The translations under genes and the position numbers were made by a program. The notes beneath the pieces are model-generated. The model ran no database searches. It saw only the letters and a list, made by a program, of their open reading frames with translations, and was not told the DNA's origin. From Gammaproteobacteria bacterium (GTDB lineage Bacteria; Pseudomonadota; Gammaproteobacteria; Arenicellales; Arenicellaceae): 39,586 bases of DNA. Shown one piece after another: positions 2,242 to 36,674 of this stretch (position 1 is the stretch's first letter; every line of letters starts with the position of its first letter). Location of the stretch: assembly GCA_017854775.1 (NCBI GenBank), contig JAFMHC010000017.1:1-39586 (forward strand), in the 5' to 3' direction.

Positions 2242-3519
2242 CTAATCATCTGGTTCAATAATTGTGTCGCCAATAGGCGCTGCGAGACCGTCGGCAACCA
2301 GTGTTCTCACCTCGCTACCGGTAAGTGTCTTTAAAAAACCAACAATTTGACCTTGCTCCAATTTGCTTAAATTTAATCGCCGTATTAGCGGGCTTAGTAA
2401 CTGGTGCTCGACACCGCCATCGCTGTAGAACGCTAACACATCGTATAAGCTTTTAAAGCTACCGTCATGCATATACGGTGCGGTTAGCTCGACATTTCTT
2501 AGTGAGGGTGTCTTGAATTTCCAGCGATCACTTGGTTTGCTGGTTACTTCGTAGCGCCCGAGATCATTCTCTTTTATGCCGCCGACAGACTGAATAACAC
2601 TTTGCTTCATTTGAGTAGTAACGCCGGGTGCCAGCTGAACGGTTACCGTGTCCGAGATTTTAGTCATTGAGTTTGAATATCCGAGCCCGGTGTTGTGTAA
2701 GTTTTGATCAGTAAACAGAGCGTCGTTACGATTGATCGTGTGGCATGACGAACACCCTGCTTTGCCAATGAATAATCGGTAGCCAGCTATCTCTTGTTTG
2801 CTTAACGCGTCGCCAATGTTGCCGTAAAGCCATTGGTCGAAACGTGAGTTAGCGGCAATTAAGCTGCGTTCATACTGAGCGATTGCTTGGCCGATATTTA
2901 GCATGTCAGGGGCCTGGCGAAATGCTTTGTCAAAAAGAGACCGGTACTCTGGGTCATCATTAATAACCTCGATCACCGCTCCGATTGAAACGTTATTCAT
3001 CTCATTGGCTGCTAATAAGGGGGACCAGGCTTGTTGAGCTAGTTGGTTTTCACGAGCATCCCAAAATAATCGCTTGGCAAAAGCAATGTTAAGAAGTGTT
3101 GGTGCATTGCGTTTTATCGCACGGCCTTCAAAGCCGATTGGCCGAGAGACTTCATTGCTGCTGAAACCTTGCTCCGGGATATGACACATGGCGCATGACA
3201 TGGTTTTGTTATGTGATAGGCGTCGATCAAAAAAAAGTTTGCGACCGAGTTCAATTTTGTTGCGATCAACCTGCTCTATTATATTTCTAGGCAATGCCGG
3301 AAGCCCGAGCTGAGGCGTTTTTGCTATCTCGTGTAGCTTAGCGACTTTGCCACGACGCATAGGCAAGCTTAGTGAGTTAGTTTTATAGGACGATTGTTGG
3401 TAACGTGTTTTATCGTCACCGGGAGCGAGGCGGATGTGGTCTAGAGAGGTGTTTGCCTGTTCCGCGTTGCCGATCGAGCTGGCCATCATTAGACAAACAA
3501 ATATCCGCCAAAATCTCAT
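2242..3519 (-). CDS. MauG/CcpA-like di-haem cytochrome c peroxidase family protein
   Basis: A 425-residue exported di-haem protein. A signal peptide covers about the first 19 residues. Two c-type haem sites are visible, CAMCH at 109-113 and CSSCH at 256-260, with the family's RNAPTLLNIAF and APYMHDGSFKSLYDVLAFYSDGG blocks. The family contains bacterial cytochrome c peroxidases and MauG, which makes amino-acid-derived cofactors in a partner protein. It is the third gene of an operon with methanethiol oxidase and a SCO protein; its ATG immediately follows the stop of the SCO gene, so translation is probably coupled. MauG-like genes are known companions of mtoX in methanethiol-degrading bacteria, which suggests a role in maturing the oxidase rather than peroxide removal; that role is inference. 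Confidence 0.9.
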   Translation of the reverse strand: MRFWRIFVCLMMASSIGNAEQANTSLDHIRLAPGDDKTRYQQSSYKTNSLSLPMRRGKVAKLHEIAKTPQLGLPALPRNIIEQVDRNKIELGRKLFFDRRLSHNKTMSCAMCHIPEQGFSSNEVSRPIGFEGRAIKRNAPTLLNIAFAKRLFWDARENQLAQQAWSPLLAANEMNNVSIGAVIEVINDDPEYRSLFDKAFRQAPDMLNIGQAIAQYERSLIAANSRFDQWLYGNIGDALSKQEIAGYRLFIGKAGCSSCHTINRNDALFTDQNLHNTGLGYSNSMTKISDTVTVQLAPGVTTQMKQSVIQSVGGIKENDLGRYEVTSKPSDRWKFKTPSLRNVELTAPYMHDGSFKSLYDVLAFYSDGGVEHQLLSPLIRRLNLSKLEQGQIVGFLKTLTGSEVRTLVADGLAAPIGDTIIEPDD

Positions 3520-4263
3520 CTATTTTTTGTTGTTTGGCGCTTCAGCAATGGCATCTTCAAGCAGCAATGTTTTAACGTCATTAATCAAAATATCCGGGTG
3601 TAAGAAAGACATACTGTAGATGTTGCGAATCTGCTTTTTTCGATCAATCAGGTAGACGCGTAAAATATGTGAGAACTTATTGCGCCCTTCTCCCTGGTTA
3701 GTGGCATCAGGCACCACCGACTGCTGATACGACTCGAGAATCGGCTTGATCGCTTGATCTGATTGGCTGGTTAAAAAATGCCAATCGATGGTTTTGCCGG
3801 CATTGATCGATTGGCTAAATTCTTTCATAACCTTAGGCGTATCAAACTCCGGGTCGAAGCTAAGAGTGAGTATTCTAAGTTTGCCTTTAAGGCCTTGTTG
3901 CTCAGCTATTTTATTACCCGTGGTGTACAGCACCATGGTCGATAGTGGGCAGCCGTTAACATCATCGCAGGTGCGATAAATAAAGCTTAACAGCGTGACC
4001 TTGTCGTCCATTAACTCAGCAAGCTGTTGTGACTCACCGTCGCTACTCAACACTATGCCATCAGCCGCTTGACTGATTACCGGCAAGGAGTATGTGCCTA
4101 CAGCGGGTGCTTCAAACGAGAGCTTACCCCAGCCTGGTGCTAGGTATACGCCTTGGCGGTCGGCTTTGAGATCAGACGCAAAAGCGCTGACGCTAAGGCC
4201 GCAGAGACTAATCCCACAGATAACGGCGCACATCAGCTTTGTAACTACGACAGCCTTGAGCAT
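3520..4263 (-). CDS. SCO1/SenC-family copper chaperone of the mtoX operon
   Basis: A 247-residue protein with an N-terminal signal sequence (about residues 1-30) and a thioredoxin-like fold. SCO proteins bind copper through two cysteines and a distal histidine and deliver it to cuproenzymes in the periplasm. Here the cysteines are C99 and C105 in YRTCDDVNGCP, a Cx5C spacing rather than the usual Cx3C, and H199 in FSHILRVYLID fits the distal ligand. It sits between mtoX and a MauG-like gene, with 69 bases to mtoX and none to the MauG gene. Methanethiol oxidase needs copper, so delivery to MtoX is the likely job. The start region is duplicated just upstream (4278-4293). Confidence 0.88.
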   Translation of the reverse strand: MLKAVVVTKLMCAVICGISLCGLSVSAFASDLKADRQGVYLAPGWGKLSFEAPAVGTYSLPVISQAADGIVLSSDGESQQLAELMDDKVTLLSFIYRTCDDVNGCPLSTMVLYTTGNKIAEQQGLKGKLRILTLSFDPEFDTPKVMKEFSQSINAGKTIDWHFLTSQSDQAIKPILESYQQSVVPDATNQGEGRNKFSHILRVYLIDRKKQIRNIYSMSFLHPDILINDVKTLLLEDAIAEAPNNKK

Positions 4264-4293
4264 GGTTAATAATTAATCTTGAGCATGGTTAAT
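4255..4293. repeat. 16-bp direct repeat duplicating the SCO start-codon region
   Basis: CTTGAGCATGGTTAAT occurs at 4255-4270 and again at 4278-4293, a 23-bp period. Read on the minus strand each copy contains ATGCTCAAG. The downstream copy is the SCO start (MLK...). The upstream copy opens a six-codon frame MLKINY that ends at TAA just before the real start. Confidence 0.75.
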
Positions 4294-4332
4294 TAGCCCC
4301 TTGAGTGTAGATAGTTAGCCGGTAAGGTGTTG

Positions 4333-5709
4333 TTACTGTGAAGCAAGCTCACTACCGGCGCTTGGGCTGGCTGACTGCGTAGTAGCGCTAGGCCGCTGCA
4401 TTCCATACAGCCCGTAAGCACCAAATCTCATTTGGTGGGCACTACCAAGTTTCTCAGCCTTAAAGTCGATCTCGAATTCCAGCTTTAAGTCTTTTCCGTT
4501 CCAGGTGTATGACTTGAAAAATTGTTCATCGGCAGCGCCTTTCTTGTCCCAGTTTTTTAACAGAGATGAGGTGAAGTAAGCGCGTTTGCCATCCCAGCTT
4601 TGAGAAATCATATTTAGCTGTGAGCCAATAACTTTCTCGTACACCTGCTTCGGTGCAAAAGGATCTGAGATATCAAAGTATCGAGTCTTTCCGTCCATAA
4701 AAGTTTGTACCCAAAGGCCTTTGTCATCCGAGGTAATCGAAATGTCGACGGGTAACGGTATTTTTGATGGGTCACCGATATCGGCGACTGCTTTTGAATG
4801 CCACTCGCCCTTGTCATCTTCGTAGATCAGCCAAATTTTCGAGGTCAACGCGGTGGTAGTGAAGCAGTAGTTGTGATCTGGTTGCCATGCGCAGCGTATT
4901 TCAAGTGGTGCACCTGGCACGTCGAGGACTTTTTCGGGTTTGCGAGAATGCAGGTTCCACTTCACCATGGTATTGCCAAAGCGTTTCATCGCCTCGCCGT
5001 CTTGTAGCATGGTGCCAAAGTCCATCATATAGTTCGACCAACCGGTAAACGACGAAGTGAACATCGCATTGCGGCGAGGCAACACTCTGACATCGTAGCC
5101 ATAGCCGTCGGCATAGTCGCCTGATTTTACCGCTCCGCGAAGGTCTTGGTCGGTCGGGTTCCAATGAGTGGCGATGTATTCACCTTGGTTCGAATATTCT
5201 ACCAAGGCAGTACGGCCGCCGTGATCTACATTGTTAGATAAGGCGGTAATCATCATTCGCCCAGCAAGTGCATAAAAGGTGTGCGGGCCAACTACGCCGC
5301 CACTTTTAGCAACAAAGTTATTAATGGTTTTATGCAGCGTAGGTTTGGCTGGGTCGGTATGCACGTCAAAGATAAAGATCTTATTGCTATCGAGGCCGCC
5401 AGCCCAAAGATATTTTCTATCGTCGGTGAAACCAGAGTGATGAGCTTCGTTGCGGCCGCCAACTGAGACAGAGTTAATGACTTTGCCATATTGAGTCGAA
5501 ATAGGGTTGACGTCAATGGTGACCATCTTGTCTTGCTCGTCACCTAAACCCTCACGACCCAGTGTCCAGACATAAACGAAATCTTCTTGGCCTACGATTT
5601 TTGCCATATATGGCGACATACACGTTTCATCAGCGCTTGATGTAGCGCTGGTGCCAATGGCTAGAACCGCTAAAAAAGAGACAACTATACTGCGACTAAT
5701 ACAATTCAT
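4333..5709 (-). CDS. mtoX: Methanethiol oxidase, SBP56 (selenium-binding protein) family
   Basis: A 458-residue protein of the SBP56 family. In bacteria this family is the copper-dependent methanethiol oxidase, turning methanethiol into formaldehyde, hydrogen sulfide and hydrogen peroxide. A cleavable signal peptide (about 1-26, ending TSSADE) marks a periplasmic enzyme. Family blocks visible include DFVYVWTLGREG near residue 45, GGRNEAHHSGFTDDRKYLWAGGLDSNKIFIFDV (about 85-115), VGPHTFYALAGRMMITALSN and the C-terminal SAHQMRFGAYGLY. The start is supported by GGAGG a few bases upstream. Genes for a SCO copper chaperone and a MauG-like protein follow in the same direction, matching the known mtoX cluster. 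The C-terminal 20 residues are a low-complexity Ser/Ala/Gln tail. Enzymatic call rests on family and context. Confidence 0.92.
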   Translation of the reverse strand: MNCISRSIVVSFLAVLAIGTSATSSADETCMSPYMAKIVGQEDFVYVWTLGREGLGDEQDKMVTIDVNPISTQYGKVINSVSVGGRNEAHHSGFTDDRKYLWAGGLDSNKIFIFDVHTDPAKPTLHKTINNFVAKSGGVVGPHTFYALAGRMMITALSNNVDHGGRTALVEYSNQGEYIATHWNPTDQDLRGAVKSGDYADGYGYDVRVLPRRNAMFTSSFTGWSNYMMDFGTMLQDGEAMKRFGNTMVKWNLHSRKPEKVLDVPGAPLEIRCAWQPDHNYCFTTTALTSKIWLIYEDDKGEWHSKAVADIGDPSKIPLPVDISITSDDKGLWVQTFMDGKTRYFDISDPFAPKQVYEKVIGSQLNMISQSWDGKRAYFTSSLLKNWDKKGAADEQFFKSYTWNGKDLKLEFEIDFKAEKLGSAHQMRFGAYGLYGMQRPSATTQSASPSAGSELASQ

Positions 5710-5727
5710 TAAATCCTCCGAATACTA

Positions 5728-5781
5728 CTATTTTTTATTACCTGCTTATAACTCACAGGCTGCACTCTTAATAAAAAATAG
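5728..5781. promoter_or_regulatory. Long inverted repeat directly upstream of mtoX
   Basis: CTATTTTTTATTA (5728-5740) and TAATAAAAAATAG (5769-5781) are perfect 13-bp complements. Inside them CCTG (5741-5744) and CAGG (5756-5759) extend the pairing. The structure ends about 19 bases before the mtoX start, next to its GGAGG site. It may be a DNA operator, or a leader-RNA hairpin affecting the ribosome site. No protein binding can be assigned. Confidence 0.5.
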
Positions 5782-5880
5782 TCAAGTGTCTGTTATGGGA
5801 TTGGAGTATTGTATATGCGGTTAACGTATGCCTTTAATAATAGCGGTTTTACATCACGATGCGCGGGCCTTTGATGGCCT

Positions 5881-6357
5881 CTAATCAAGCGTTTTAGCTC
5901 TTGATGTTGCCGCCATTGCGACCGCGTATGCCGCGACCTGAGAGCGGATTTTTTGATCGCTGATTGCCAACATTCTAATTGCCAGTAGAGCCGCGTTGGT
6001 GGCATTATTTATCGCCACTGTAGCGACCGGAATCCCTTTCGGCATCTGCACAATCGATAGCAGTGAATCCATCCCGTCCAGTTTTTGCTTGCTACCGGCT
6101 ATTGGTACGCCAATCACCGGCAAAGTAGTGCACGAGGCAACCATGCCCGGCAGGTGGGCAGCGCCGCCAGCACCTGCGATGATGACGCTAAAGCCTTCGC
6201 TTTCAGCCGACTTTGCAAACGCCACCATATCATCAGGTGTGCGATGCGCTGAGACCACTTTAGCTTGATGCTCGACCTCGAATTCGCTTAAGATCTCGGC
6301 CGCTGCTTTCATTATTGGCCAGTCTGAATCTGACCCCATTATTATCGCAATTTTCAT
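5881..6357 (-). CDS. purE: N5-carboxyaminoimidazole ribonucleotide mutase
   Basis: A 158-residue class I PurE, which moves the carboxyl group of N5-CAIR to carbon to make CAIR in purine synthesis. The N-terminal phosphate-binding [13 protein letters not shown], the SAHRTP motif and [13 protein letters not shown] are intact, followed by PVIGVP and [19 protein letters not shown]. Length is normal. It is the last gene of a four-gene minus-strand set and begins only 7 bases after purK, the usual enzyme partner. Very secure. Confidence 0.97.
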
Positions 6358-6364
6358 TTTTATT

Positions 6365-7504
6365 TTAGATTACTAAATTTTCGATTAAGTGATCGGCTCG
6401 TCGTTTTTGTTCGGCACCCCACAAATTAACATGCCCCATTTTACGCTTAACTCGAGATTCCTGCTTGTTGTAAAAGGTGAATGACAAGTTTTCGTCTGTG
6501 ATCTGAGCCATTATTTGATCTTCATTAAATGAACCATTACGTGTGCCCAAAAGGTTCGCCATCAGCATTGACTGGTATTTGGCTATAGGCTGTATTAGTG
6601 GCAGGTCAGCAACCGCGCGCATGTGATTTTCAAATTGTGAGCAGTCCATTAAATCGAGCGTAATGTGGCCTGAGTTATGAGGTCTTGGGGCAGACTCATT
6701 TAGCACCAATTTATCATCTTGGTCTAGAAAAAATTCGAATGCGAATAGCCCACGAGTATTCAGGGCTTGCATTATTTTTTTGACTTGGTTTTGTGCCGAA
6801 CGCTCTACTTCAGCCGAGACCCCTGACGGATAACTCACGTAACGGCAAGTGCCATCTTCCTGATGAGTCTCGAACAGAGGGTAGAAAATAATGTCGTTGG
6901 AGTTAGCGACCGCAATCAGAGATAGCTCCTTCTTGAAATCGACTGCATATTCAAACAAAACAGTGCCACTGTTCTTTATCTTCTCAAATACTTTAGTAGC
7001 CTGTTTGATATTGCGGACCTTATAGGTGCCTATACCGTCGTAGCCGCCCTTGGCAAGCTTTAGGTAACCTGATTTGTCAACTAGGTCACGAGCATTACTA
7101 ACTTCGAAAAAGTCTGCAATATTAATATCAAGGCTTTCAAAAAAGAGGTTTTCAGAAAGTTTATCTTCAATTAATTGATAGCGTGCAGGGTGGGGAGCAA
7201 CCTGCGTATCACTTTGTGTCGAGGCATCAATTAATAGCTGACTGTCGATAAACTCGTTCTCTAATGTGACAATGTCTGCCTGCTTGAAGAATTCGGTTAA
7301 ATCTTCGATGCTATTACTGCTGCCTATAATCAATTGGTCGGCAACCTTACTTGCAGGCCCGCCAGCACGCTCGGCAAAGACAATCGTTTTACCTCCCATA
7401 GCTTGATAGGCTTGAGTCATCATCATGGCCAGCTGACCATCACCTAAAATGCCTATCAAGGGTAATGGCTTGGCATTGAGGTTGTTAATTTTTGGTGTTG
7501 GCAT
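6365..7504 (-). CDS. purK: N5-carboxyaminoimidazole ribonucleotide synthase
   Basis: A 379-residue ATP-grasp enzyme that joins bicarbonate to AIR using ATP, giving N5-CAIR for PurE. Visible are the N-terminal [22 protein letters not shown] nucleotide-type fold, TLENEFID, the ATP-grasp lysine/glycine loop [16 protein letters not shown] (about 146-161), [18 protein letters not shown] and [16 protein letters not shown]. The segment [10 protein letters not shown] replaces the more usual QDRL-EK-FL sequence, a mild divergence. The stop is 7 bases from purE and the start 26 bases after an SbtB-like gene. The enzyme uses bicarbonate, which makes the upstream bicarbonate transporter gene significant. 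Confidence 0.95.
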
Positions 7505-7530
7505 ATTGCGGTTCTGGGGGGTGATTGAAT

Positions 7531-7839
7531 CTAGTCGCTAAATTTAGTAGGTCTAAGCACTTCAACGTCACTAGTGAAGGTAACCATTGCATAGTTGTCG
7601 TAGTATTTTCGTTGTAGATGTTCGGCTAGTTGGTTGACAAGCTCTGGGCCGCAAATAACTTCTATTCGAATGTTTGCGTTTGCTTCCCAAGACCCGCTAC
7701 GCAAGCCTCGACTGCCTTTTCCTCGAGCATTGGTGATAGTGTAACCGAGTCCGCCGAGTTGTTCTATATCATTGATTAAGCGAGATTCCAAAGCCGCTTC
7801 AGTAATAACGGTGAGCAATTTGGTTTTGTGATTATTCAT
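7531..7839 (-). CDS. sbtB: SbtB-like PII-family signalling protein
   Basis: A 102-residue PII-like protein. The pattern KLLTVITEAAL, GGLGYTITNARGKGSRGLRSG, ANIRIEVICGPELVNQLAEHLQRKYYDNYAMVTFTSDVEVLR matches cyanobacterial SbtB, a trimeric sensor of adenine nucleotides (cAMP, AMP, ADP, ATP) that binds and controls the bicarbonate transporter SbtA. The flexible T-loop region GKGSRGLRSGSWEANAN is shorter than in classical GlnB. The C-terminal CGPxGC redox hairpin found in some SbtB proteins is missing; the chain ends PTKFSD. It lies 37 bases after sbtA and 26 before purK. Function by homology and neighbour. Confidence 0.85.
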   Translation of the reverse strand: MNNHKTKLLTVITEAALESRLINDIEQLGGLGYTITNARGKGSRGLRSGSWEANANIRIEVICGPELVNQLAEHLQRKYYDNYAMVTFTSDVEVLRPTKFSD

Positions 7840-7876
7840 AGCGACTTAATGACCTATATTTTTTTATACGATTTTG

Positions 7877-8824
7877 TTATGCGAGTATATTTTGTGCACT
7901 GCTGGCAAGCCAATGATAGAGCGGTATACCGAGTAATATATTAAATGGAAAGGTGATGCCTAACGAGGCGGTAAGTGACAGTGTCGGGTTTGCTTCGGGC
8001 ACTGAGATCCGCATGGCCGCTGGCACGGCGATATAAGAAGCACTCGCGAATAGGGTTGCTAAGATGGCAGTTCCGCCGATAGATAGGCCTAAGGCCAAAC
8101 CGGTAGCTGTACCGATGACGGAAAAAATTAGCGGTGTGACAATGCCAAATATTACTAAAAACAAACCATAGCGTTTCAAGCTACCAAGCTGGCTTGCCGT
8201 GATTAATCCCATCTCTAAGAGGAAAAGAGCGAGAATGCCTTTGAATAAATCGAAGAACAGCGGTGATATTGATTCAACCCCTGACGGCCCGCTTAACCAG
8301 CCAATGAACAGCCCGCCCAATAGGAACATCACGCCTTTACCGAGTAAAACTTCATGCCCGACAGTCGACCATTGGGTATCTTTTGACAAGCCTTTAGCCA
8401 AAACGATGCCGACCAAAATGGCGGGTATCTCTAATAACACTACAAATAATGCCATGTGCTCTTCGAACTCGATATTACGAGTGTTCATATAGGCGACAGC
8501 GACTGCGAACGTACCCACACTGACCGAGCCGTAATGAGCCGCTATTGAGGCAGAATCGGCTTTATTGAATTTGCCCACGTGTTTTAAAATTGGGAAGACT
8601 AGTAGCGGCAATAAAAAACCCATTCCAACGACTAACGCCATTTGCGGTAACAAAGTTGCGAACGGTTGATTTGCCAGCTCGATGCCGCCTTTTAAGCCGA
8701 TCGTGAGCAGCAACAGCATTGATACGAAGTCGTATATCTGGCTAGGGAGGCGCAGCTCAGATTTCATCGCTCCTGCGAATAAGCCGAAGAGAAAGAACCA
8801 AATTATGGGATCGATAGAGTTCAT
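7877..8824 (-). CDS. sbtA: SbtA-type sodium-dependent bicarbonate transporter
   Basis: A 315-residue membrane protein with about ten hydrophobic segments in two repeats. Family sequences include LPSQIYDFVSMLLLLTIGLKGG near residue 27-48, AAHYGSVSVGTFAVA (about 91-105) and the matching second-repeat stretch SASYIAVPAAMRISVPEANPTLSLTASLGITFPFNI. In cyanobacteria SbtA imports bicarbonate with sodium. The central cytoplasmic loop (GLSKDTQWSTVGHEVLLGKG) is short, making this protein smaller than the roughly 370-residue cyanobacterial ones. It is first in the minus-strand set sbtA-sbtB-purK-purE. No clear ribosome site precedes the ATG at 8824. Confidence 0.88.
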   Translation of the reverse strand: MNSIDPIIWFFLFGLFAGAMKSELRLPSQIYDFVSMLLLLTIGLKGGIELANQPFATLLPQMALVVGMGFLLPLLVFPILKHVGKFNKADSASIAAHYGSVSVGTFAVAVAYMNTRNIEFEEHMALFVVLLEIPAILVGIVLAKGLSKDTQWSTVGHEVLLGKGVMFLLGGLFIGWLSGPSGVESISPLFFDLFKGILALFLLEMGLITASQLGSLKRYGLFLVIFGIVTPLIFSVIGTATGLALGLSIGGTAILATLFASASYIAVPAAMRISVPEANPTLSLTASLGITFPFNILLGIPLYHWLASSAQNILA

Positions 8825-8866
8825 TAGGCGTAAAGTTTAGTTAGGCTGAGGCCTCTGTTAATAAGA

Positions 8867-8896
8867 AAAAGGCTCGGATACATCCGAGCCTTTTTA
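8867..8896. terminator. Bidirectional intrinsic terminator
   Basis: AAAAAGGCTCGGAT and ATCCGAGCCTTTTT are perfect complements around a 2-nt loop (AC). The A-run and T-run on either side make it work on both strands. On the minus strand it closes the YebE/DUF533 transcript before sbtA, so sbtA should have its own promoter in 8825-8866. Confidence 0.92.
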
Positions 8897-8962: not shown

Positions 8963-9685
8963 CTAGGCAGCGATGCCTTGATCGGCTTGTTGTTCTAGGT
9001 AGGCAGAAAGACCTCTGGGCAGATCTAAGGCGATCGCTAGATTGTTTAGAAATGTTCGTTCTGCTTGATCATCGACTTCAATCGCGAGATAACCAGCGAG
9101 ATAAACTTCGGCTTTATGATGATCTTGGGTGATGCCCGCGGTGATTTCTTGGATCGGTATATCGCGTGCCATCAAATCAAATACACCGCCTTTATCACTG
9201 GCGCTTAATTGAGCGCCCTCGATAGCGTCAAACAAGCGCTTATGCTCGACGGCATCGATATTACCATCCGCTTTTGATGCGGCAATCATCGTTTTGATCA
9301 AGGTCATGGTTAGTGGATTTTGAGTGGCCTCAATCAATCCATCGTTAAGTTGCGGCTGAGTTTGCGCGGCCGATTGAATGTCTTGATCGGTTACCGGCTG
9401 AGTTTGTCCCAAGGCTTTATTTTGTTGCCAATTGCCATAAGCCTTATATGCCAAGCCGCCTAAAACAGCGGTGCCGCCGAGAGTGGCAACTTTTTTAGCC
9501 ATTTTGCGAGTCGACTTGCTGCCAAGCAGTAAAGCCATAACGCCACCTGCTGCGGCGCCTCCCATTAAACCACCCGGTATAAAGGAGGACAGCCCCCCAG
9601 GTTGCTGCGCCGACACCTGATCGTTTTGCGGTGGGGTTTGATTGGTGTTTTGCGTGAGGCTATTTAAAATATTTTGTAAGTTCAT
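8963..9685 (-). CDS. YebE-like DUF533 / TerB-fold protein
   Basis: A 240-residue protein of the YebE/DUF533 family. The N-terminal 35 residues are Gln/Asn/Pro rich. A Gly/Ala-rich segment (about 35-55, GGLMGGAAAGGVMALLLGSK) and VATLGGTAVLGGLAYKAYGNW (about 67-87) look membrane-associated. The C-terminal half (about 125-225) is the helical TerB-like domain with KTMIAASKADGNIDAVEHKRLFDAI and LAGYLAIEVDDQAERTFLNNLAIALDLP. The biochemical role of the family is not known; E. coli yebE is linked to envelope stress. Possibly co-transcribed with the HPF-like gene 50 bases upstream. Confidence 0.85.
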   Translation of the reverse strand: MNLQNILNSLTQNTNQTPPQNDQVSAQQPGGLSSFIPGGLMGGAAAGGVMALLLGSKSTRKMAKKVATLGGTAVLGGLAYKAYGNWQQNKALGQTQPVTDQDIQSAAQTQPQLNDGLIEATQNPLTMTLIKTMIAASKADGNIDAVEHKRLFDAIEGAQLSASDKGGVFDLMARDIPIQEITAGITQDHHKAEVYLAGYLAIEVDDQAERTFLNNLAIALDLPRGLSAYLEQQADQGIAA

Positions 9686-10328: not shown

Positions 10329-11228
10329 CTACTTAGAAAGTAAGCGCTCGGACGTTTTTAATACGGTATCGACGGCCGGATGTTTTATTTTGCGTTCTGG
10401 CGAAATTCCATAGTAGCGGTCTGAAACAGACTCAATTCTACCAATGATAGCGACCTCGAACTGCGCCAATACATCGCGTTCAACCGCAGTAGCTACGCAA
10501 AAAATACCTCGGCCTGTTTGGCCAAAGAATTTCAGCAGCGCGCTATCATCAAACTCAGCGACTATTTTTGGTGCGATTTTTGTCTGAACGAACCACGATT
10601 CTAAATTCTGATGTAGCGCGGAATTGCGCCCAGGCATCAGAAACGGGGCCTGATGCAATGACTCTGGAAAGTTCGATTGATATTTCGCACAGTCTTCTTT
10701 GCGAGCGAAGAAGGTAATTCCAGATTGGCCGAGGTAGTGATTGATTGCTCTCACACTGACCCCTATCGGCAGAGGTTGGTCAGAAATTATCAAATCGAGT
10801 TTATTCATTGATAAATCGGCTAGCAAGCTTGGTAAGTCGCCCTCGTGGCACTCTAGAATGAAGCGACTGTCGATATCAAAACAATCGTTCAACATCTCGA
10901 AAACCATCACTTTTGGGATAGCGTCGACAATGCCGACATTGAAATTGGCAACCTGGCCGACGTCATGCGACGCTAGGGTTCTTGATAGCTCGTTGCCCAA
11001 GTTAAAAATATCCTCTGCATAGCGCAGGGTAATTTGACCTAAGCTATTAACTTCCAAGCGTTTGCCGTGCCTCTGAAACAAAGGCGCACCAATATAACTT
11101 TCAAACGTGGCTATCTGTCCGCTGACGGTTTGCGGGGTCACGTGCAAGGCTTCTGCCGCCCGAGTAACGCTGCCCTCTTTAGCAACTGCGTAGAAATACT
11201 GAAGGTGGTTAAAATTAAGTTGCTTCAT
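10329..11228 (-). CDS. nhaR: LysR-family regulator, NhaR type
   Basis: A 299-residue LysR regulator. The winged helix lies at residues 1-60 (LNFNHLQYFYAVAKEGSVTRAAEALHVTPQTVSGQIATFESYIGAPLF), which is NhaR-like. The remainder is the co-inducer domain. It is divergent from nhaA, 108 bases away, the classical arrangement in which NhaR activates nhaA in response to sodium. I chose the ATG at 11228 (MKQLNFNH) because GGAAG lies about seven bases upstream; a longer frame starts at 11243. NhaR identity rests on both sequence and neighbour. Confidence 0.9.
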   Translation of the reverse strand: MKQLNFNHLQYFYAVAKEGSVTRAAEALHVTPQTVSGQIATFESYIGAPLFQRHGKRLEVNSLGQITLRYAEDIFNLGNELSRTLASHDVGQVANFNVGIVDAIPKVMVFEMLNDCFDIDSRFILECHEGDLPSLLADLSMNKLDLIISDQPLPIGVSVRAINHYLGQSGITFFARKEDCAKYQSNFPESLHQAPFLMPGRNSALHQNLESWFVQTKIAPKIVAEFDDSALLKFFGQTGRGIFCVATAVERDVLAQFEVAIIGRIESVSDRYYGISPERKIKHPAVDTVLKTSERLLSK

Positions 11229-11336
11229 GTTGGTTGCTTCCAATGTTCGATAAAACCTGATTATAGTTAAATATAGTTCGAATATAATTAAATTCCCTTA
11301 ATCGTATACTTGGCCTCCCTATTTTACGAGGTTGTT
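11229..11336. promoter_or_regulatory. nhaR-nhaA divergent control region
   Basis: This 108-base region separates two divergent genes and must hold both promoters. Its centre is very A/T-rich with a TTCGAA core at 11277-11282 flanked by ATATAG and TATAAT. TATAAT at 11283-11288 is a possible -10 element for nhaA. A GAGG ribosome site precedes the nhaA ATG at 11337. A LysR-type site is expected here; its exact position is not clear. Confidence 0.5.
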
Positions 11337-12515
11337 ATGAATTTAACTAAGTTGATTCACCATGAGTCTTTTGGTGGTGCTCTACTGGTAGCTGCTGCTT
11401 TGGTAGCGATGGTGCTAGCCAACTCGCCGGCTAGTGTCTTTTACGTTGGCTTTTTAGATGTGCCGGTTGAAGTTGCTTTTGGGTCGCTTGAAATAGCCAA
11501 GCCGTTGTTGCTCTGGGTTAACGACGGTTTAATGGCGCTGTTTTTCTTACTTATCGGCTTGGAGATAAAACGAGAAGTTTTAGATGGCAATTTGTCATCC
11601 AAAGAACAAATCATATTGCCGGCAATCGGGGCGGTTGCCGGTATTGTATTTCCGGCCCTTATCTATGTGTTTTTTACCATTGATGATCCGATTGGAATAC
11701 GCGGCTGGGCAATCCCATCAGCCACGGATATTGCCTTTGCGATTGGTGTGTTTACCTTATTTGGAACGCGCTTGCCGTTATCTTTAAAGCTATTTCTATT
11801 AAGTGTCGCAATCTTTGACGATATCGGAGCGATCGTTATTATTGCCTTATTCTACTCGGCTGAGCTTTCAACGGCCTCGCTAATGGTTGGCATAGCTGGC
11901 TTAGTGATTTTGTTTTTACTTAATCGCTTTAAGGTTAATACATTGTCTCCCTATGCGGTTGTCGGAATGATCGTTTGGGTCGCCGTTCTGAAATCTGGAG
12001 TGCATGCAACATTGGCTGGTTTTGCCATCGCATGGTTCATTCCACTGAAGCTCAAAAACCAAAATGGTAAACCGATGTTGCCCGAGCTCGAGCATGCGTT
12101 GCATCCTTGGATCGCCTTCTTCGTGCTTCCTTTGTTTGCATTCGCCAATGCTGGCATCGATCTCGGCAATATTGGTGTCGGCGATTTATTTAGCCCGATT
12201 ACCCTTGGCATTGCCTTGGGTCTATTCGTCGGCAAACAAATAGGCATATTTGGTATGTGTTACTTGGCTATCAAGTTGAATTTGGCAAAACTACCTGAAG
12301 GCGCATCGTGGCCTCAGTTCTACGGTGTTTGCTTACTGTGTGGTATTGGCTTCACGATGAGTTTGTTCATTGGAACGCTCGCCTTTGAAGACCAAGAGTT
12401 GGCCTATCAAACGACCGTGAAGCTTGGCGTTATGATTGGTTCAATAGCGTCTGCATTACTCGCGGTTACTGTATTAAATGCGTCAAAAAACAAGCCGTTA
12501 GTTGTAACTGACTAA
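11337..12515 (+). CDS. nhaA: NhaA-type Na+/H+ antiporter
   Basis: A 392-residue inner-membrane antiporter that expels sodium in exchange for protons. Family motifs are clear: HHESFGGALLVAAALVAMVLANSP at the N-terminus, WVNDGLMALFFLLIGLEIKREVL, IPSATDIAFAIGVF, the ion-binding aspartate pair in LSVAIFDDIGAIVIIALFY, and a C-terminal GIGFTMSLFIGTLAF. The start at 11337 is preferred because GAGG lies five bases upstream; the frame can be extended to a TTG at 11310 but nothing supports it. It is divergent from nhaR. A small secreted protein gene follows 43 bases later. Confidence 0.97.
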   Translation: MNLTKLIHHESFGGALLVAAALVAMVLANSPASVFYVGFLDVPVEVAFGSLEIAKPLLLWVNDGLMALFFLLIGLEIKREVLDGNLSSKEQIILPAIGAVAGIVFPALIYVFFTIDDPIGIRGWAIPSATDIAFAIGVFTLFGTRLPLSLKLFLLSVAIFDDIGAIVIIALFYSAELSTASLMVGIAGLVILFLLNRFKVNTLSPYAVVGMIVWVAVLKSGVHATLAGFAIAWFIPLKLKNQNGKPMLPELEHALHPWIAFFVLPLFAFANAGIDLGNIGVGDLFSPITLGIALGLFVGKQIGIFGMCYLAIKLNLAKLPEGASWPQFYGVCLLCGIGFTMSLFIGTLAFEDQELAYQTTVKLGVMIGSIASALLAVTVLNASKNKPLVVTD

Positions 12516-23332: not shown

Positions 23333-23437
23333 GTCTCAAATAAACGAAAAACTAGCCTCCCCGAAGGGCGAGCTAGCGAGTTGTACCGCTTTCTACCCCG
23401 AGGGCACCTAGTCCTGACGCAAATCATTATCCGGCAG
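23333..23437 (-). repeat. Left arm of inverted repeat flanking the TAXI-carbonic anhydrase cassette
   Basis: This 105-bp arm begins GTCTCAAATAAACGAAAAAC and ends inside the carbonic anhydrase gene, covering its last codons (LPDNDLRQD) and stop. The other arm at 25192-25278 is its reverse complement with a few substitutions and an 18-bp gap that removes the stop codon region. Confidence 0.85.
23346..23376 (-). terminator. Intrinsic terminator of the carbonic anhydrase transcript
   Basis: On the minus strand CTAGCTCGCCC-TTC-GGGGAGGCTAG forms a G/C-rich stem with small bulges and is followed by TTTTTCG. It lies about 30 bases after the carbonic anhydrase stop and inside the repeat arm. Confidence 0.75.
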
Positions 23438-24049
23438 GTCCAAGTAAAAATCGACAACACCTGTTTCAATCGAGTATTCGGCGCCAACTATCTTAATCTG
23501 ACCACTATCGACTAGCTCTCGTAAAAAGCGAGAGCGCATCTGTAACCCATTTACCGACTGCTCAACATTGGCGCGCATGGCTTGATGGATAAGGTCTTCT
23601 CTGTCTTTGAATTGATTGCTCTTCACGATTGGATGAACGGCAGGTGTTACTCGGTCTACAATTGACGCAACATTCGGTGACAGCTTATCGGGGTCGTCCA
23701 TTAGTGAGTCGACAGTCGCGTTAATTGCACCACAGTGAGAATGGCCTAATACCACTACAAGTTGGGTGCCAAAGTGCTGGCAGGCAAATTCGACGCTACC
23801 AATTTGAGAAGGTGCGACAATATTGCCGGCTACTCGAATTACGAATAAATCGCCAAGTCCACGGTTAAATACCAGTTCAGCGGGCACTCGCGAATCCGAA
23901 CAGCCTAGAATTACGGCAAACGGGTTTTGTCCATCTTTGATACCTTGTCGGCGAGTAGAAATGGTTAGCTCAGCACCGTCGGCAGTCCCTTCGATATATC
24001 GTTCATTGCCTTCAATTAGCATTTGAAGGGCCTTGTCTGCATTCATCAT
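23408..24049 (-). CDS. Beta-class carbonic anhydrase
   Basis: A 213-residue beta carbonic anhydrase, interconverting carbon dioxide and bicarbonate. Zinc ligands are visible: C50 with D52 and R54 in LGCSDSRVPAE, then H103 and C106 in GHSHCGAI. RVAGNIVAP and SVEFACQHFGTQLVVVLGH are family blocks. It starts ATG-ATG; either may be used. It follows the TAXI gene by eight bases, so the two are cotranscribed. The final codons lie within an inverted repeat copied upstream of the TAXI gene. No signal peptide, so cytoplasmic. Confidence 0.95.
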   Translation of the reverse strand: MMNADKALQMLIEGNERYIEGTADGAELTISTRRQGIKDGQNPFAVILGCSDSRVPAELVFNRGLGDLFVIRVAGNIVAPSQIGSVEFACQHFGTQLVVVLGHSHCGAINATVDSLMDDPDKLSPNVASIVDRVTPAVHPIVKSNQFKDREDLIHQAMRANVEQSVNGLQMRSRFLRELVDSGQIKIVGAEYSIETGVVDFYLDLPDNDLRQD

Positions 24050-24057
24050 GTTTATTT

Positions 24058-25152
24058 TTATTCTTGTTTGTTCAACAATCTAGCTTCTTTATAGTAGCGA
24101 ATCGCGCCAGGGTGTAACGGGATAGAAATGCCAGCATATGATAGCTCTTCTTTATCTAAACCCTCTAGCGAAGGGTGTAAAGACTTGAAGTCTCGAAAAT
24201 TTTCTACTACTTCTTTAACGACATGATATATCGCTTTAGGCGATGTCGATTCAGAAGCGACAAAGGTTGCGCCTAAGCCAAACGACATAATATCTTGATC
24301 GCCGGAATACATATTTTTGGTGATTAGACCCGTTCGATAATAAGGCTTGGCTTTAATAGCGGTTGACACTTCTGGGCCATCGACTGCGACTAAGCGAATC
24401 AGACAGTCGTCAGCCACACTGCGCAAGTTATCGTTGAGGCTGCTAGTAAGCAAAGTGATTGCCTCTATTTCACCGTTACATAGTTGTGCAACTTGTTTTA
24501 TATCGCTCATTGGCCGCACTTCTTTGAAGTTATTGTTGTTCCAGCCCTTGGCTTCGAGTAAGTCGTCGACAATGCGATGTTGTAGTGAGCGAGTGTAGCC
24601 AAAACTAACGCGCCGATCGGCGAGGTCATCAAAGTTATTGATGTCGCTATTGTCACGCACAATGATGGCCAGAGGGTCGGCCTCGAGTGCAAAAACAGCA
24701 CGCAAATTTTTATTCGCGCCTTGTTTTTCGAAGGCACTAGTGCCGTGATAAGCGTGAAACTGCCAATCAGATTGTGCAAACACTAGATCAAAGTTTCCGT
24801 CGCGCAGTTCTTTTAAGTTATAGATTGAACCGCCGGTACTTTCGAGTGAGCAGCGAATCTTGTGCAAATCTTTGTGTCGGTTTAGTAGTCGGCAGATTAC
24901 CCCGCCGATCGGAAAGTAGACGCCTTGTACGCTACCCGTGCCGAGCAATAGATGCGACATGCTATTTAGTGAGTTTGGTGTAACCGAAGCTTGGTTCGCG
25001 TTTGCTTCAGCTTCACTCTGATTGTTAGGAAGGTCGCACGAGGTCAATAAGGCTAACAATGAAAAGGCAATGAGAGTTTGTGTAACTCTGCGCTGCGCTG
25101 CACTTAACTTGGGCATGATTATGGCGATCTTCAATATGTTTAGAGGCATCAC
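24058..25152 (-). CDS. TAXI-type TRAP solute-binding lipoprotein (orphan)
   Basis: A protein of about 364 residues of the TAXI family, the periplasmic binding subunits of TRAP transporters. A lipobox is present (LLALLTSC, C39), so it should be a lipoprotein. The domain starts LLLGTGSVQGVYFPIGGVICRLLN, with the family's CSLESTGGSIYNLKELRDGNFDLVFAQSDWQFHAYHG and FDDLADRRVSFGYTRSLQHRI. The start is uncertain: GTG/ATG at 25152/25149 or ATG at 25116, which gives a shorter, more typical signal. No TRAP membrane subunit (fused 4TM-12TM) lies in the window. It is paired with carbonic anhydrase eight bases downstream. Ligand unknown. Confidence 0.88.
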   Translation of the reverse strand: MMPLNILKIAIIMPKLSAAQRRVTQTLIAFSLLALLTSCDLPNNQSEAEANANQASVTPNSLNSMSHLLLGTGSVQGVYFPIGGVICRLLNRHKDLHKIRCSLESTGGSIYNLKELRDGNFDLVFAQSDWQFHAYHGTSAFEKQGANKNLRAVFALEADPLAIIVRDNSDINNFDDLADRRVSFGYTRSLQHRIVDDLLEAKGWNNNNFKEVRPMSDIKQVAQLCNGEIEAITLLTSSLNDNLRSVADDCLIRLVAVDGPEVSTAIKAKPYYRTGLITKNMYSGDQDIMSFGLGATFVASESTSPKAIYHVVKEVVENFRDFKSLHPSLEGLDKEELSYAGISIPLHPGAIRYYKEARLLNKQE

Positions 25153-33438: not shown

Positions 33439-33840
33439 ATGAAAAACGAAAAACTAATCAACAATTCAAAGAAAACTTTTGCTTCGGCGATCGCAACGTC
33501 AGTTTTAGCAACCGCACTTCTTAGCGTCTCTGGGGTAGCGTCAGCAGCATCAACCGAGCGTTGTGCCGATGTTGTAAAAGGTGGTAAGAATGGATGTGCG
33601 ATTAAAGCCCTGGGCACTTCTTGTCAAGGTCAAGCAACTGACGATAATACCGTTGGGGCTTGGATTAAAGTACCTACCGGCACCTGTGGCAATATTGTAA
33701 GCATTTGTGCTTCTACTGCTGAAGCGCCAGAGGGCACCTCTGAGAAAAAACTTAAAAAAGCCTGTGAGAAAATTGCAGAGCAAAGCGACTCATCTGTTGC
33801 TGGTGGTCGTTTAGTAGACAAAGTTGGCGAGTCTATTTAA
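33439..33840 (+). CDS. Divergent DUF2282/bufferin-type precursor with C-terminal extension
   Basis: A 133-residue exported protein. The signal peptide is unusually long (about 1-37, ending ASAAS). The mature part starts with [14 protein letters not shown] and contains GTSCQGQA and [10 protein letters not shown], the same four-cysteine frame as the DUF2282 protein encoded next (C42, C53, C62, C83). Two extra cysteines (C90, C109) and about 45 extra C-terminal residues distinguish it. DUF2282 proteins with MNIO genes are copper-binding RiPP precursors (bufferins, GigP) whose cysteines become thiooxazoles. The diverged core suggests a second substrate of the same enzyme. Confidence 0.75.
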
Positions 33841-33940
33841 ACCGCACTATTTATTTTAAGATGTTGGTTAGTACCTGTTAAAGTTCTTACCTAAAGGTGA
33901 GGGCTTTATTTTTTAATGAGTAATGGAACGGAGTATTTAT

Positions 33941-34219
33941 ATGAAATCTAATTTAAAAGCATCGGCCGCAGCGGCCTCAATTTTAGCGTTGGCATTAGTG
34001 GCTAATTCTGGGCTAGCCCACGCAGGCAAAGAAGGCTATGAAAAATGCCAAGGGGTTGCTAAGGCAGGCATGAATGACTGTGGTGCCAATGGACATAGTT
34101 GTGCCGGTCAGGCAGAAGTAGATGGCGACAAAAACGAATGGGTTTATGTGCCTGAAGGAACCTGTGACAAAATAGTTGGTGGTACGGTTAAAGCTGCCAA
34201 AAAGGAAGCTAAGTCATAG
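33941..34219 (+). CDS. bufA: DUF2282 bufferin precursor (BufA/GigP type)
   Basis: A 92-residue precursor with signal peptide (about 1-28, GLAHAG). The mature core shows the full family pattern: [49 protein letters not shown], with cysteines at 36, 47, 54 and 75. In bufferins the signal peptide is also the recognition leader and an MNIO enzyme converts core cysteines into copper-binding heterocycles before export. I use the ATG at 33941, preceded by GGAG; the frame can be extended six codons. The MNIO gene follows 64 bases later. Confidence 0.9.
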
Positions 34220-34283
34220 TTAGGCTAGCTACTTAATTCTGCGTTGTCTTGTCAGGTTTTATTAGAGCTAAATACTCTAACAT

Positions 34284-35966
34284 TTGGTCAATAATATCCT
34301 TCTGGGCAATGCAGTTTTGAATAACGAAAACAATCTTAGCTCTACAGCGTCAGGCCTAGGCATACGGTCTGAATTATTCGATTCAGTTGCGAGCATGAAT
34401 CGTTCAGCGAAACAAAAAATTGGTTTTTTCGAAGCTCATTCCGAAAACTATTTTGGTGAGTCAATTGCCAGAGCCAAATTATTAAAGCTGCGCCAAGATC
34501 ATCCTATATCCCTGCATGGAGTTGGCCTTTCATTGGGTCGCGCAGATGAACTCAGTCAATCGCATTTAGCTGAACTCAAACGACTCGTTGAGCAAGTAGA
34601 ACCTGTCCTGGTTTCCGAGCATCTAGCGTGGAGTGCGTACTCGCATCGCCACCTTCCTGATTTACTGCCCTTATCCCTTACTACTCAAGCGTTAGATATA
34701 ATTTGCCAACACATTGATCAAATGCAGACTGCGCTCGGCCGTCAGATTCTGATCGAAAACCCATCTAATTATTTGCTATTTGATCAGCTACAAATTCCTG
34801 AGCCTGAATTTCTTAATGCGCTTGCTCAGCGAACCGGCTGTGGCCTATTAATGGATATCAATAATATTCATGTAAGCGCGAGCAATATTGGTCGCAATGG
34901 CTCCGACTATATTAATGCGGTAAGCAGCGACGCTATTGGGCAATACCATTTAGCCGGTTATACAGAGGTAAAGCGAGATTATCAGGGAGGTAGCGAATCG
35001 ATACTCATCGACACCCATAATCAAACTGTATACGATCCCGTATGGGAACTATTTGATCACGCCCTATCGGTTCATGGAGCTAGGCCAACACTGTTTGAAT
35101 GGGATTCTGATTTCCCTGAGTTTGAGGTGTTGCTGGGTGAGTGTCAAAAAGCCACGATGTTATTGAATAAATATCCAGTCAAATCAACGGGGAGCACCAA
35201 GCTCGGCGAGCAAAGCCTTATAAGTTCGGTCAATCTGGCTCAGACGCAAGATGACTTTTTGGATCGTGTGCTTAACTTAAGTAAGACTTTAGAAACGGCC
35301 AGCCCTGAACATCAACATCGCATCTGGATTTACCAAAATAACGTGTTTGGCGCAGTGCAAGATTACCTAAAAGAGGTTTATCCAGCCACTAGAGGTGTTG
35401 TTGGGGCTGATTTTTTTAAGCAAATGGCACAAGTATTTATCCAGAGTTCGCCGCCATCCACCGGCAATATACATTTTTACGGCGAGGGCATGTCAACGCT
35501 TTGCGGCTCATTCGAGGGGCTTGATGGTCTGCCGTATTTATTTGATCTGATGCGTTATGAATGGGCGTTACATAAGAGTTACTTTAGCATTGTCAGCGAT
35601 GCGCTTGATCCTAGTGTGATACCACAAGAAGAGCTGTTAACAAGCTCAGTGATGTATAACGACAGTGTATCTATAATTTGCTCCGACTACCCTATTTATG
35701 AAATTCAACGTCAGTCGCTACCTAAATTTCAAGGTCGCGTATCAATTGATTTGAATCAAAGCCAAGATAACTTATTGATTTATAAGCTTGGGCATGAAGT
35801 TCAGTGCATGGTGATAGAGGCGGAACAGGCCGCATTTCTTAGCGCTTTAGACGAGAATCAAAATTTGTTGCAAGCAATTGAAGGTTTGCAGGGGTCTATA
35901 GCAGAAGACACATTATCAAAAACACTGTCATTAGTCTTTGAGACTCAATTGCTGAAGTGCAGTTGA
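34284..35966 (+). CDS. Fused MNIO (DUF692) and DUF2063 protein: BufB-BufC fusion
   Basis: A protein of about 560 residues made of two usually separate proteins. Residues about 24-295 are a DUF692/MNIO TIM barrel: GLGIRSELFD, FFEAHSENYFGES, SLHGVGLSLG, SEHLAWSAYSHRHLPDLLPL, IENPSNYL, CGLLMDINNIHVSASN, GQYHLAGYTE and LIDTHNQTVYDPVWELF, which hold the histidine, glutamate and aspartate iron ligands. From about 310 the chain matches DUF2063 (HRIWIYQNNVFGAVQDYLKEVYPATRGVVGADFF, HFYGEGMSTLCGSF, LPYLFDLMRYEWALHKS), the BufC/GigB partner that helps present the precursor. The start is uncertain: TTG at 34284 or TTG at 34317; neither has a ribosome site. No stop interrupts the join. Confidence 0.9.
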   Translation: MVNNILLGNAVLNNENNLSSTASGLGIRSELFDSVASMNRSAKQKIGFFEAHSENYFGESIARAKLLKLRQDHPISLHGVGLSLGRADELSQSHLAELKRLVEQVEPVLVSEHLAWSAYSHRHLPDLLPLSLTTQALDIICQHIDQMQTALGRQILIENPSNYLLFDQLQIPEPEFLNALAQRTGCGLLMDINNIHVSASNIGRNGSDYINAVSSDAIGQYHLAGYTEVKRDYQGGSESILIDTHNQTVYDPVWELFDHALSVHGARPTLFEWDSDFPEFEVLLGECQKATMLLNKYPVKSTGSTKLGEQSLISSVNLAQTQDDFLDRVLNLSKTLETASPEHQHRIWIYQNNVFGAVQDYLKEVYPATRGVVGADFFKQMAQVFIQSSPPSTGNIHFYGEGMSTLCGSFEGLDGLPYLFDLMRYEWALHKSYFSIVSDALDPSVIPQEELLTSSVMYNDSVSIICSDYPIYEIQRQSLPKFQGRVSIDLNQSQDNLLIYKLGHEVQCMVIEAEQAAFLSALDENQNLLQAIEGLQGSIAEDTLSKTLSLVFETQLLKCS

Positions 35967-36227
35967 GTTTAAATTGACTTGATTAGAGTTGGTGTCTGAA
36001 TTTTACCTAGACTTAAAATATCGCGTTTAGTATCAGGTTAACCAATGGGGTGTTTTGTACGAACTAAATAAGTGATTGAAAACTGCTAGAAACAAACTAC
36101 TTTTTGTTGGGAAAGTAGCGAATAGCCAGCTATTCCGTTTATTTTTCCGCCGCAATTAAGCCGTTTCCACCCGGTTTTCATCTCACCCTAGTTCGCGCAA
36201 AGGCCTCTAATAAAAAATGAGAATAAA
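35967..36227. other. Intergenic region with two consecutive hairpins before doxX
   Basis: CTACTTT/AAAGTAG (36097-36118, 8-nt loop) is followed directly by GAATAGC/GCTATTC (36120-36135, 2-nt loop) and then a T-rich run CGTTTATTTTT. The second hairpin with its tail is a weak intrinsic-terminator shape. This may reduce transcription from the precursor genes into doxX. No coding frame seen. Confidence 0.5.
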
Positions 36228-36674
36228 ATGAAAAACTTATATGAAGCGTTCGGGACATTCTGTGCAACTATGATTTCGCCGCTGGTCAGTGTTTGCGCCC
36301 GCATCTACATAGGCCTAATTTTCTGGAGATCGGGCGTCCTGAAATTTGACGACCTTGAGAGTACAGTCGAGAACTTCGACCCATCAGAAGATGGCGACTT
36401 TATCTTGTCTTTTTTACCTGAATCATTTCCGCCAGAGATACCCGCGTATTTGGCGACTTTTGGTGAGTTAGTATTGCCGATTCTGTTGTTCGTCGGATTA
36501 TTTACTCGGATTGGCGCTCTCGGTTTGTTGATTATGACCATTGTTATCCAATACTTCGTACCGGGCTTTGAGAATCACGAGCATTATTTATGGATGATTA
36601 TCTTAGCGATGCTGCTGGCCAATGGTGGCGGTAAATTGTCTCTCGACAATTGGCTGTTTAAAGAAGGTAAATAG
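36228..36674 (+). CDS. DoxX-family membrane protein of the bufferin/gig operon
   Basis: A 148-residue membrane protein with four hydrophobic segments (about 17-33, 67-85, 88-104, 117-133). ARIYIGLIFWRSGVLKF and the ELVLPILLFVGLFTRIGALGLLIMTIVIQYF stretch are DoxX-family features. DoxX proteins (GigT/BufD) are the regular fourth component of bufferin/gig operons with DUF2282, DUF692 and DUF2063; their exact role is unsettled. It lies 261 bases after the fused MNIO gene, an unusually large gap for this operon, so it may have separate expression. Confidence 0.85.
   Translation: MKNLYEAFGTFCATMISPLVSVCARIYIGLIFWRSGVLKFDDLESTVENFDPSEDGDFILSFLPESFPPEIPAYLATFGELVLPILLFVGLFTRIGALGLLIMTIVIQYFVPGFENHEHYLWMIILAMLLANGGGKLSLDNWLFKEGK

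Follow-up and report, generated by a model that had tools for sequence, protein, structure and literature searches.

Why should genes for an SbtA-type bicarbonate transporter and its SbtB partner, a pair studied mainly within the cyanobacterial CO2-concentrating mechanism (CCM), stand next to two genes of purine synthesis? The question is raised by a 39,586-nucleotide stretch of DNA from a gammaproteobacterium of the family Arenicellaceae (assembly GCA_017854775.1, contig JAFMHC010000017.1, positions 1 to 39,586; hereafter the window). Here sbtA (7877-8824), sbtB (7531-7839), purK (6365-7504) and purE (5881-6357) follow one another on the minus strand, with intergenic gaps of 37, 26 and 7 bases. 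This arrangement had been reported in an initial annotation of the locus, which the coordinates of the open reading frames (ORFs) match exactly; its title also called the genes fused, and they are adjacent only.

The reading that we favour, and regard as moderately probable, is that the four genes form one regulatory unit supplying and using bicarbonate for purine synthesis, with SbtAB as a portable bicarbonate-supply cassette. SbtA would import HCO3- with Na+, and SbtB, which is PII-like and likely adenylate-binding, would probably gate SbtA. PurK would then make N5-carboxyaminoimidazole ribonucleotide (N5-CAIR) from HCO3- and ATP, and PurE would convert N5-CAIR to carboxyaminoimidazole ribonucleotide (CAIR). 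Within this scheme we infer the co-transcription, the import direction, the gating by SbtB and the physiological need. The known SbtAB pair stands here in a new operon setting, with a role that is probably non-photosynthetic; a purine-specific purpose and, above all, an adenylate feedback go further and are put forward tentatively.

Identity of the four genes

The identities of all four genes are established by sequence, with predicted folds as further evidence for SbtA and SbtB. SbtA (315 aa) matches the Na+-dependent bicarbonate transporter family (Pfam Sbt_1, PF05982) with 384 bits against a cut-off of 27, covering profile positions 1-307 of 308, and its closest sequence matches in the Protein Data Bank (PDB) include SbtA Slr1512 (E 4e-26). 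Its AlphaFold model has a pLDDT of 89.5; Foldseek ranks 1-5 are all SbtA chains (TMq 0.72-0.84), followed by bile-acid symporter homologues. Moreover, the equivalents of the bicarbonate/Na+ site (V101, S102, S261, S263 and I265) are invariant in 31 sequences, the residues being those named for SO_3758 and SbtA in PMC12093963 and located by eye with the help of the GSVS and SAS motifs.

SbtB (102 aa) scores 76.6 bits against Pfam P-II. Its closest solved chains are TTHA0516 and cyanobacterial SbtB, and its predicted fold is PII-like and nearest to SbtB-type proteins. It carries R44xxR47, matching the R43xxR46 phosphate motif of SbtB (PMC10117731). The second arginine is present in 26 of the 27 rows of one alignment (A3) and 10 of the 12 rows of another (A2, with eight rows from the genus and family), the first in 21/27 and 5/12, respectively, and R44 is variable within the genus. 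The C-terminal CGPxGC redox loop is absent, with no Cys among the last 15 residues; this loop is widespread, not universal, and the Cyanobium SbtB chains (103-104 aa) stop at this KF as well. Among related proteins, CPII of Thiomonas comes from a carboxysome operon. It is PII-like and was solved bound to ADP and bicarbonate (5d4p), and the PDB title of TTHA0516 from Thermus (2cz4) says only putative PII-like protein.

PurK (379 aa), predicted to be the HCO3- and ATP-using N5-CAIR synthetase, has the Pfam ATP-grasp and PurK_C domains, and the best 18 of its 23 solved relatives in the PDB are PurK. It stays under the curated cut-offs of TIGR01161 (291.8 vs 318.4 bits) and NF004679 (304.3 vs 326 bits). 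PurE (158 aa), the predicted N5-CAIR mutase, matches Pfam AIRC and exceeds the cut-off of NCBIfam TIGR01162 (205.5 vs 149.6 bits). Since purK and purE are each found once in the 4.86-Mb assembly (92.7% complete), the other five purK matches scoring at most 41 bits, the window pair is the housekeeping pair.

Recurrence of the linkage

Sbt_1 was above the cut-off in 54 of 369 genomes sampled at the class level and in 55 of 398 sampled at the phylum level. A search for purE in 59 genomes (the 54 of the class sample and five extra relatives) found it in 57. Of 63 sbtA loci, 6 have purE at 5 kb or less, three of them in the genus (G000, the window's genome, G003 and G012) and three in other families (G085, G200 and G265). 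As the control served purH: 56 of these 59 genomes have it, and it was within 50 kb on the same contig at none of the 63 loci. When G000 is left out, purE is within 2.5 kb of sbtA in three genomes of the class sample (G085, G200, G265) against 0.11 expected (Poisson P ~0.0002), or three against 0.20 (P ~0.001) with the phylum sample added; this expectation assumes contiguous genomes and uniform gene positions, and many assemblies are fragmented. The link of sbtA to purE exceeds chance, yet it is uncommon.

The pairing is found in several gene orders. In the class sample, G200 has purK-purE-sbtA-sbtB. The order in G085 is sbtA-purE-purK, and its purE, taken at the longest frame, shares 31 bases with the end of sbtA. 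We also examined 80 named loci, the best matches of a genome-contig scan, and eight of them hold purE, purK and sbtA in a same-strand cluster. Because the query alignment included three linked SbtA proteins from elsewhere and only the best 80 were listed, this is no estimate of frequency. The order is sbtA-sbtB-purE-purK in L089 (a Chromatiales metagenome-assembled genome, MAG), L102 (Pseudohongiella) and L111, and sbtA-purE-purK in L126 (Pleionea sediminis) and L135 (Alteromonadaceae Bs31). L125 has purE-purK-sbtA-sbtB-purC, L120 has purE-purK-purC-sbtA-sbtB-tsaC (tsaC by similarity), and L157, from a MAG labelled Planctomycetota, has purE-purK-sbtA-sbtB. Kept outside the eight were L127 (Nitrosospira), where the purE and purK matches are partial and an opposite-strand gene lies between, and L147, with purE on the opposite strand. 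Frames overlap between purK and purE in L076, and between both sbtA-purE and purE-purK in L077. The pairing is thus not confined to this genome but extends, in differing orders, to other families and to the Planctomycetota-labelled locus, and it occurs in genomes of cultured strains (Pleionea sediminis, Pseudohongiella sp. O18).

When the linkage is mapped onto 118 SbtA proteins in a tree, 10 changes of state are required, six of them forced by starred branches; such branches are less reliable in a tree built, as here, with a quick method, and this tree does not separate gain from loss. The count was 11 changes and seven forced with L127 included. The tree omits six duplicate loci and the short L016, and 30 of 62 class-sample places had a fetched locus. 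Together with the differing gene orders, these forced changes point to several independent formations of the linkage. The same pairing in such distantly related bacteria suggests that biosynthesis, and not carbon fixation, can be what the importer feeds.

Two further observations concern these SbtA loci. A small ORF of 74-93 codons stands just before sbtA in L126 (5713-5994), L135 (5723-5947) and L139 (5771-5995), that is, in 3 of 17 examined loci without a neighbouring sbtB; it has no Pfam match and resembles a two-helix membrane protein, which might be a substitute regulator. In addition, the SbtA proteins of L087 and L088 (Arthrobacter and Cryobacterium, Actinomycetota) are 70% identical to that of the window, which suggests acquisition by horizontal transfer.

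Carbon fixation and other partners of sbtAB

The initial annotation suggested that the pair may supply bicarbonate for purine synthesis and not for carbon fixation, and the gene content agrees with this. The sole RuBisCO-family match in the window's genome (91.7 bits) is a RuBisCO-like protein encoded near mtnA; no CO2-fixing RuBisCO, which a CCM serving the Calvin cycle would call for, was found in this assembly. Likewise, no CO2-fixing RuBisCO was found in 11 of the 14 linked genomes, ten having no match and G000 the RuBisCO-like protein only, several of these assemblies being incomplete; full-scoring RuBisCO is present in the other three (G265 and the genomes of L089 and L120). More broadly, the Sbt-carrying genomes that were tested include many without CO2-fixing RuBisCO. 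As a side observation, two transketolase-like ORFs were seen by eye between the RuBisCO-like gene and mtnA (L048, G000:C216:14000-24000).

Elsewhere, sbtAB has other neighbours. Pyruvate carboxylase and TsaC use bicarbonate and ATP, as PurK does. The order pycA-pycB-sbtA-sbtB occurs in five loci of Pseudomonas and Stutzerimonas type (L106, L107, L108, L110, L113). The L110 products match the models of biotin carboxylase and pyruvate carboxylase subunit B; because the pycB product exceeds the threshold for oxaloacetate decarboxylase alpha as well, a pyruvate carboxylase is more likely without being the sole reading. In the class sample, biotin carboxylase lay within 5 kb at none of the 63 sbtA loci (same-contig rows were scripted, and one distant row was missed), so these five loci are the only ones known here to have the pycAB link, and biotin carboxylase was rejected as a general neighbour of sbtA. 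In L150, a biotin-carboxylase match at a distance of 3 kb, on the strand opposite to sbtA, was left uncounted. The gene tsaC follows sbtB in L097 and L104 (family scan on L104), and a carbonic anhydrase gene does so in L152 and L154 (family scan on L152). Weak carbonic-anhydrase matches (28-30% identity) were also found about 1.1 kb or less after sbtB in L106, L108, L109 and L110, and SulP carriers stand beside sbtAB in some loci. These neighbours are a descriptive listing.

Such varied carboxylation partners favour a bicarbonate cassette of general use over a device for purines alone. SbtAB would repeatedly have come to adjoin bicarbonate-consuming biosynthetic enzymes, often in bacteria without a Calvin cycle. 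Linkage to genes for PurK, pyruvate carboxylase-type enzymes, TsaC and carbonic anhydrase offers a testable role for the family, namely active bicarbonate supply for biosynthetic carboxylation. Of the earlier proposal that the pair supplies bicarbonate for purine synthesis, the recurrent purKE link speaks for the supply itself, and the other neighbours and the unlinked sbtAB copies speak against its exclusivity.

Two details of these loci may be added. A LysR-type gene is divergent from pycA in the pycAB loci. In L104 (4930-8229, Wenzhouxiangella), pyrC, sbtA, sbtB and tsaC all point the same way, with a four-base overlap between sbtB and tsaC.

Relation to described systems

The window pair shares with cyanobacterial SbtA-SbtB the transporter family and fold, the PII-like partner directly downstream and the R..R phosphate motif. 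It differs in that its SbtB is at most 39% identical to the cyanobacterial SbtB chains listed and lacks the redox loop, no CO2-fixing RuBisCO was found, and the pair is linked to purKE. MpsAB of Staphylococcus aureus belongs to a different protein family from SbtA. In the available part of PMC6689103, bicarbonate concentration in this non-autotroph is proposed for MpsAB, the proposed consumers including pyruvate carboxylase and phosphoribosylaminoimidazole carboxylase among others; bicarbonate supply in a non-autotroph with a purine carboxylase among the users is thus a shared idea, and that part of the source describes no purKE linkage. The gating that we propose has a precedent in Escherichia coli, where SbtB blocked SbtA uptake in four of five pairs (PMC4275256, in part).

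The inorganic-carbon toolkits of autotrophs likewise have carbon transporter genes co-located with genes of carbon-consuming pathways, but the neighbours there are CO2-fixation pathways, and no adjacency of sbtA and purK is described in the available part of the review (PMC10880623). The same part of that review ties PurK to life at low CO2: the enzyme takes HCO3- as a substrate, and purK mutants of cyanobacteria depend on high CO2. PMC10880623 and PMC3610870 name both sbtA and purK, in unrelated places as far as the available parts go. The initial annotation knew of no described system of this kind, and we found no description of an sbtA-purK linkage in the literature searched, which left subscription papers mostly and preprints wholly outside.

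Shewanella SO_3758 is an Sbt-family protein of a heterotroph with the same binding-site serines (PMC12093963, in part), and the locus of a relative from another Shewanella (L139) has no adjoining sbtB or purKE match.

Alternative explanations

Several observations weigh against a dedicated tie between SbtAB and purine synthesis, and many of them come from the genus itself. Full-length Sbt_1 is present in 6 of 18 genus genomes, the window's included, with a seventh, broken copy in G012; the sister-genus genome G018 also has Sbt_1. The order sbtA-sbtB-purK-purE occurs in just three of the 18 (G000, G003, G012) and is decaying in one. In G012 both sbtA and sbtB are truncated (L016:5656-6445): sbtA has 196 codons left, an inner part and the C-terminal part being gone, and sbtB is without the N-terminal part, while purK and purE are kept intact in surroundings unlike those of the window. 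In four of the six genomes with full-length sbtA (G004, G005, G007, G009), and likewise in G018, sbtAB stands without adjoining purKE. The purKE pair lies elsewhere in G004 (13 kb away), G007 and G009, and is present in G001 and G010, which gave no Sbt_1 match.

Upstream of sbtA, the window carries a DUF533 gene outside the unit (8963-9685, minus strand) and, as further context, genes for a LysR-type regulator (10329-11243, minus strand) and the NhaA Na+/H+ antiporter (11310-12515, plus strand), all identified by Pfam. A DUF533 gene also precedes sbtA in G004, G007, G009 and G018. A LysR gene is close to sbtAB in all five unlinked genomes and near sbtA in five of seven relative loci examined (L010, L011, L013, L014, L015), and nhaA is near sbtAB in G007 and G009. 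Given this shared context without purKE and the decay in G012, purKE in the window seems to be a later arrival beside an older sbtAB, and sbtAB loss is possible without purKE loss.

Other points lie further afield. In the phylum sample, purE was within 5 kb of sbtA in none of 49 further genomes, those outside the set tested earlier, although 46 of them have purE (distances read by eye). The link in G265 (SulP-sbtA-sbtB-aldolase-like-purE-purK) passes through an aldolase-like gene, and L081 and L082, of the same family, have SulP-sbtA-sbtB-aldolase-like without purE. The window also has a gene for a protein of the carbonic anhydrase family (151 bits, short of the cut-off of 221), so bicarbonate may have another source; this gene lies within 23408-25152, directly downstream of an NMT1-like binding-protein gene on the same strand. 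Finally, SO_3758 has been argued to fit efflux better (PMC12093963, in part).

Much of this would suit an SbtAB that is a general housekeeping importer for inorganic carbon, pH or Na+, with purKE placed beside it opportunistically on one low-CO2-responsive transcript and with no special purine benefit. The unlinked sbtAB of the genus near LysR, and in two genomes near nhaA, the other carboxylase genes and SulP carriers beside it elsewhere, and the empty phylum sample all agree with this view. The purE link, however, exceeds chance and takes several orders, with no such link seen for purH, and we consider a general importer of this kind a possible but rather unlikely account. That chance rearrangement placed purKE by sbtAB in each lineage without any function is much less probable: it would fit the rarity of the link and the decay in G012, but it must contend with three cases against 0.11 or 0.20 expected, at least six forced changes on the quick tree and the frame overlaps in L076 and L077. 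Least probable of all is a carrier for a different small anion, for instance formate, or an exporter of bicarbonate, that meets purine synthesis through one-carbon supply instead of HCO3- for PurK, as could be drawn from a Shewanella Sbt-like protein that affects formate tolerance and is discussed as a possible exporter (PMC12093963, in part), since the carrier gene adjoins purK and purE instead of purT, the site residues are invariant and the top fold matches are SbtA.

Within the favoured reading of a shared bicarbonate unit, SbtB might close a product-feedback loop, in which purine synthesis sets the adenylate state and this in turn opens or closes the importer feeding the bicarbonate step of the same pathway. 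The PII-like fold and the R..R motif agree with this earlier suggestion; the redox loop is missing, and the first arginine varies in the genus. No sbtB was found in the examined neighbourhoods of three linked loci (L077, L126, L135), so the loop is possible but, in our view, rather doubtful. If true, substrate import for a single anabolic reaction would be under PII-type control in a setting other than photosynthesis; more generally, an SbtB linked to purKE points to a new setting for PII-like signalling.

Boundaries of the proposed unit and neighbouring genes

A terminator-like hairpin (8866-8895, listed on the minus strand) lies between the DUF533 gene and sbtA. It has eight core pairs followed by a U5 run able to pair with an A5 opposite, and folds at -19.5 kcal/mol (z -4.9; none of 200 shuffles as low); it is nearly symmetric and could act on either strand. 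A simple hairpin scan did not list it; folding did. From its position, a separate unit probably begins at sbtA, and the hairpin probably isolates the four genes from those upstream. Neither the sbtA-sbtB gap nor the sbtB-purK gap folds better than its shuffled versions. Downstream of purE, no significant hairpin was found in 5715-5860, which covers most of the stretch, so transcription may read through into the SBP56 gene.

Regulatory scans of the window gave little: a search for PurR operators returned one weak match with three mismatches, distant from sbtA, nothing was above the Rfam gathering score, and a promoter scan was no better than chance (nine found vs 6.9 expected).

Next downstream of purE, genes for SBP56, SCO1 and CCP_MauG run in one direction (2242-5709), which we take to resemble a methanethiol oxidase operon. 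Elsewhere in the window (33439-36674), a DUF2282 protein gene is followed by one for a 560-aa protein that joins an MbnB/TglH/ChrH-type enzyme to DUF2063 and then by a DoxX gene, an arrangement that presumably resembles an operon for a metal-binding modified peptide.

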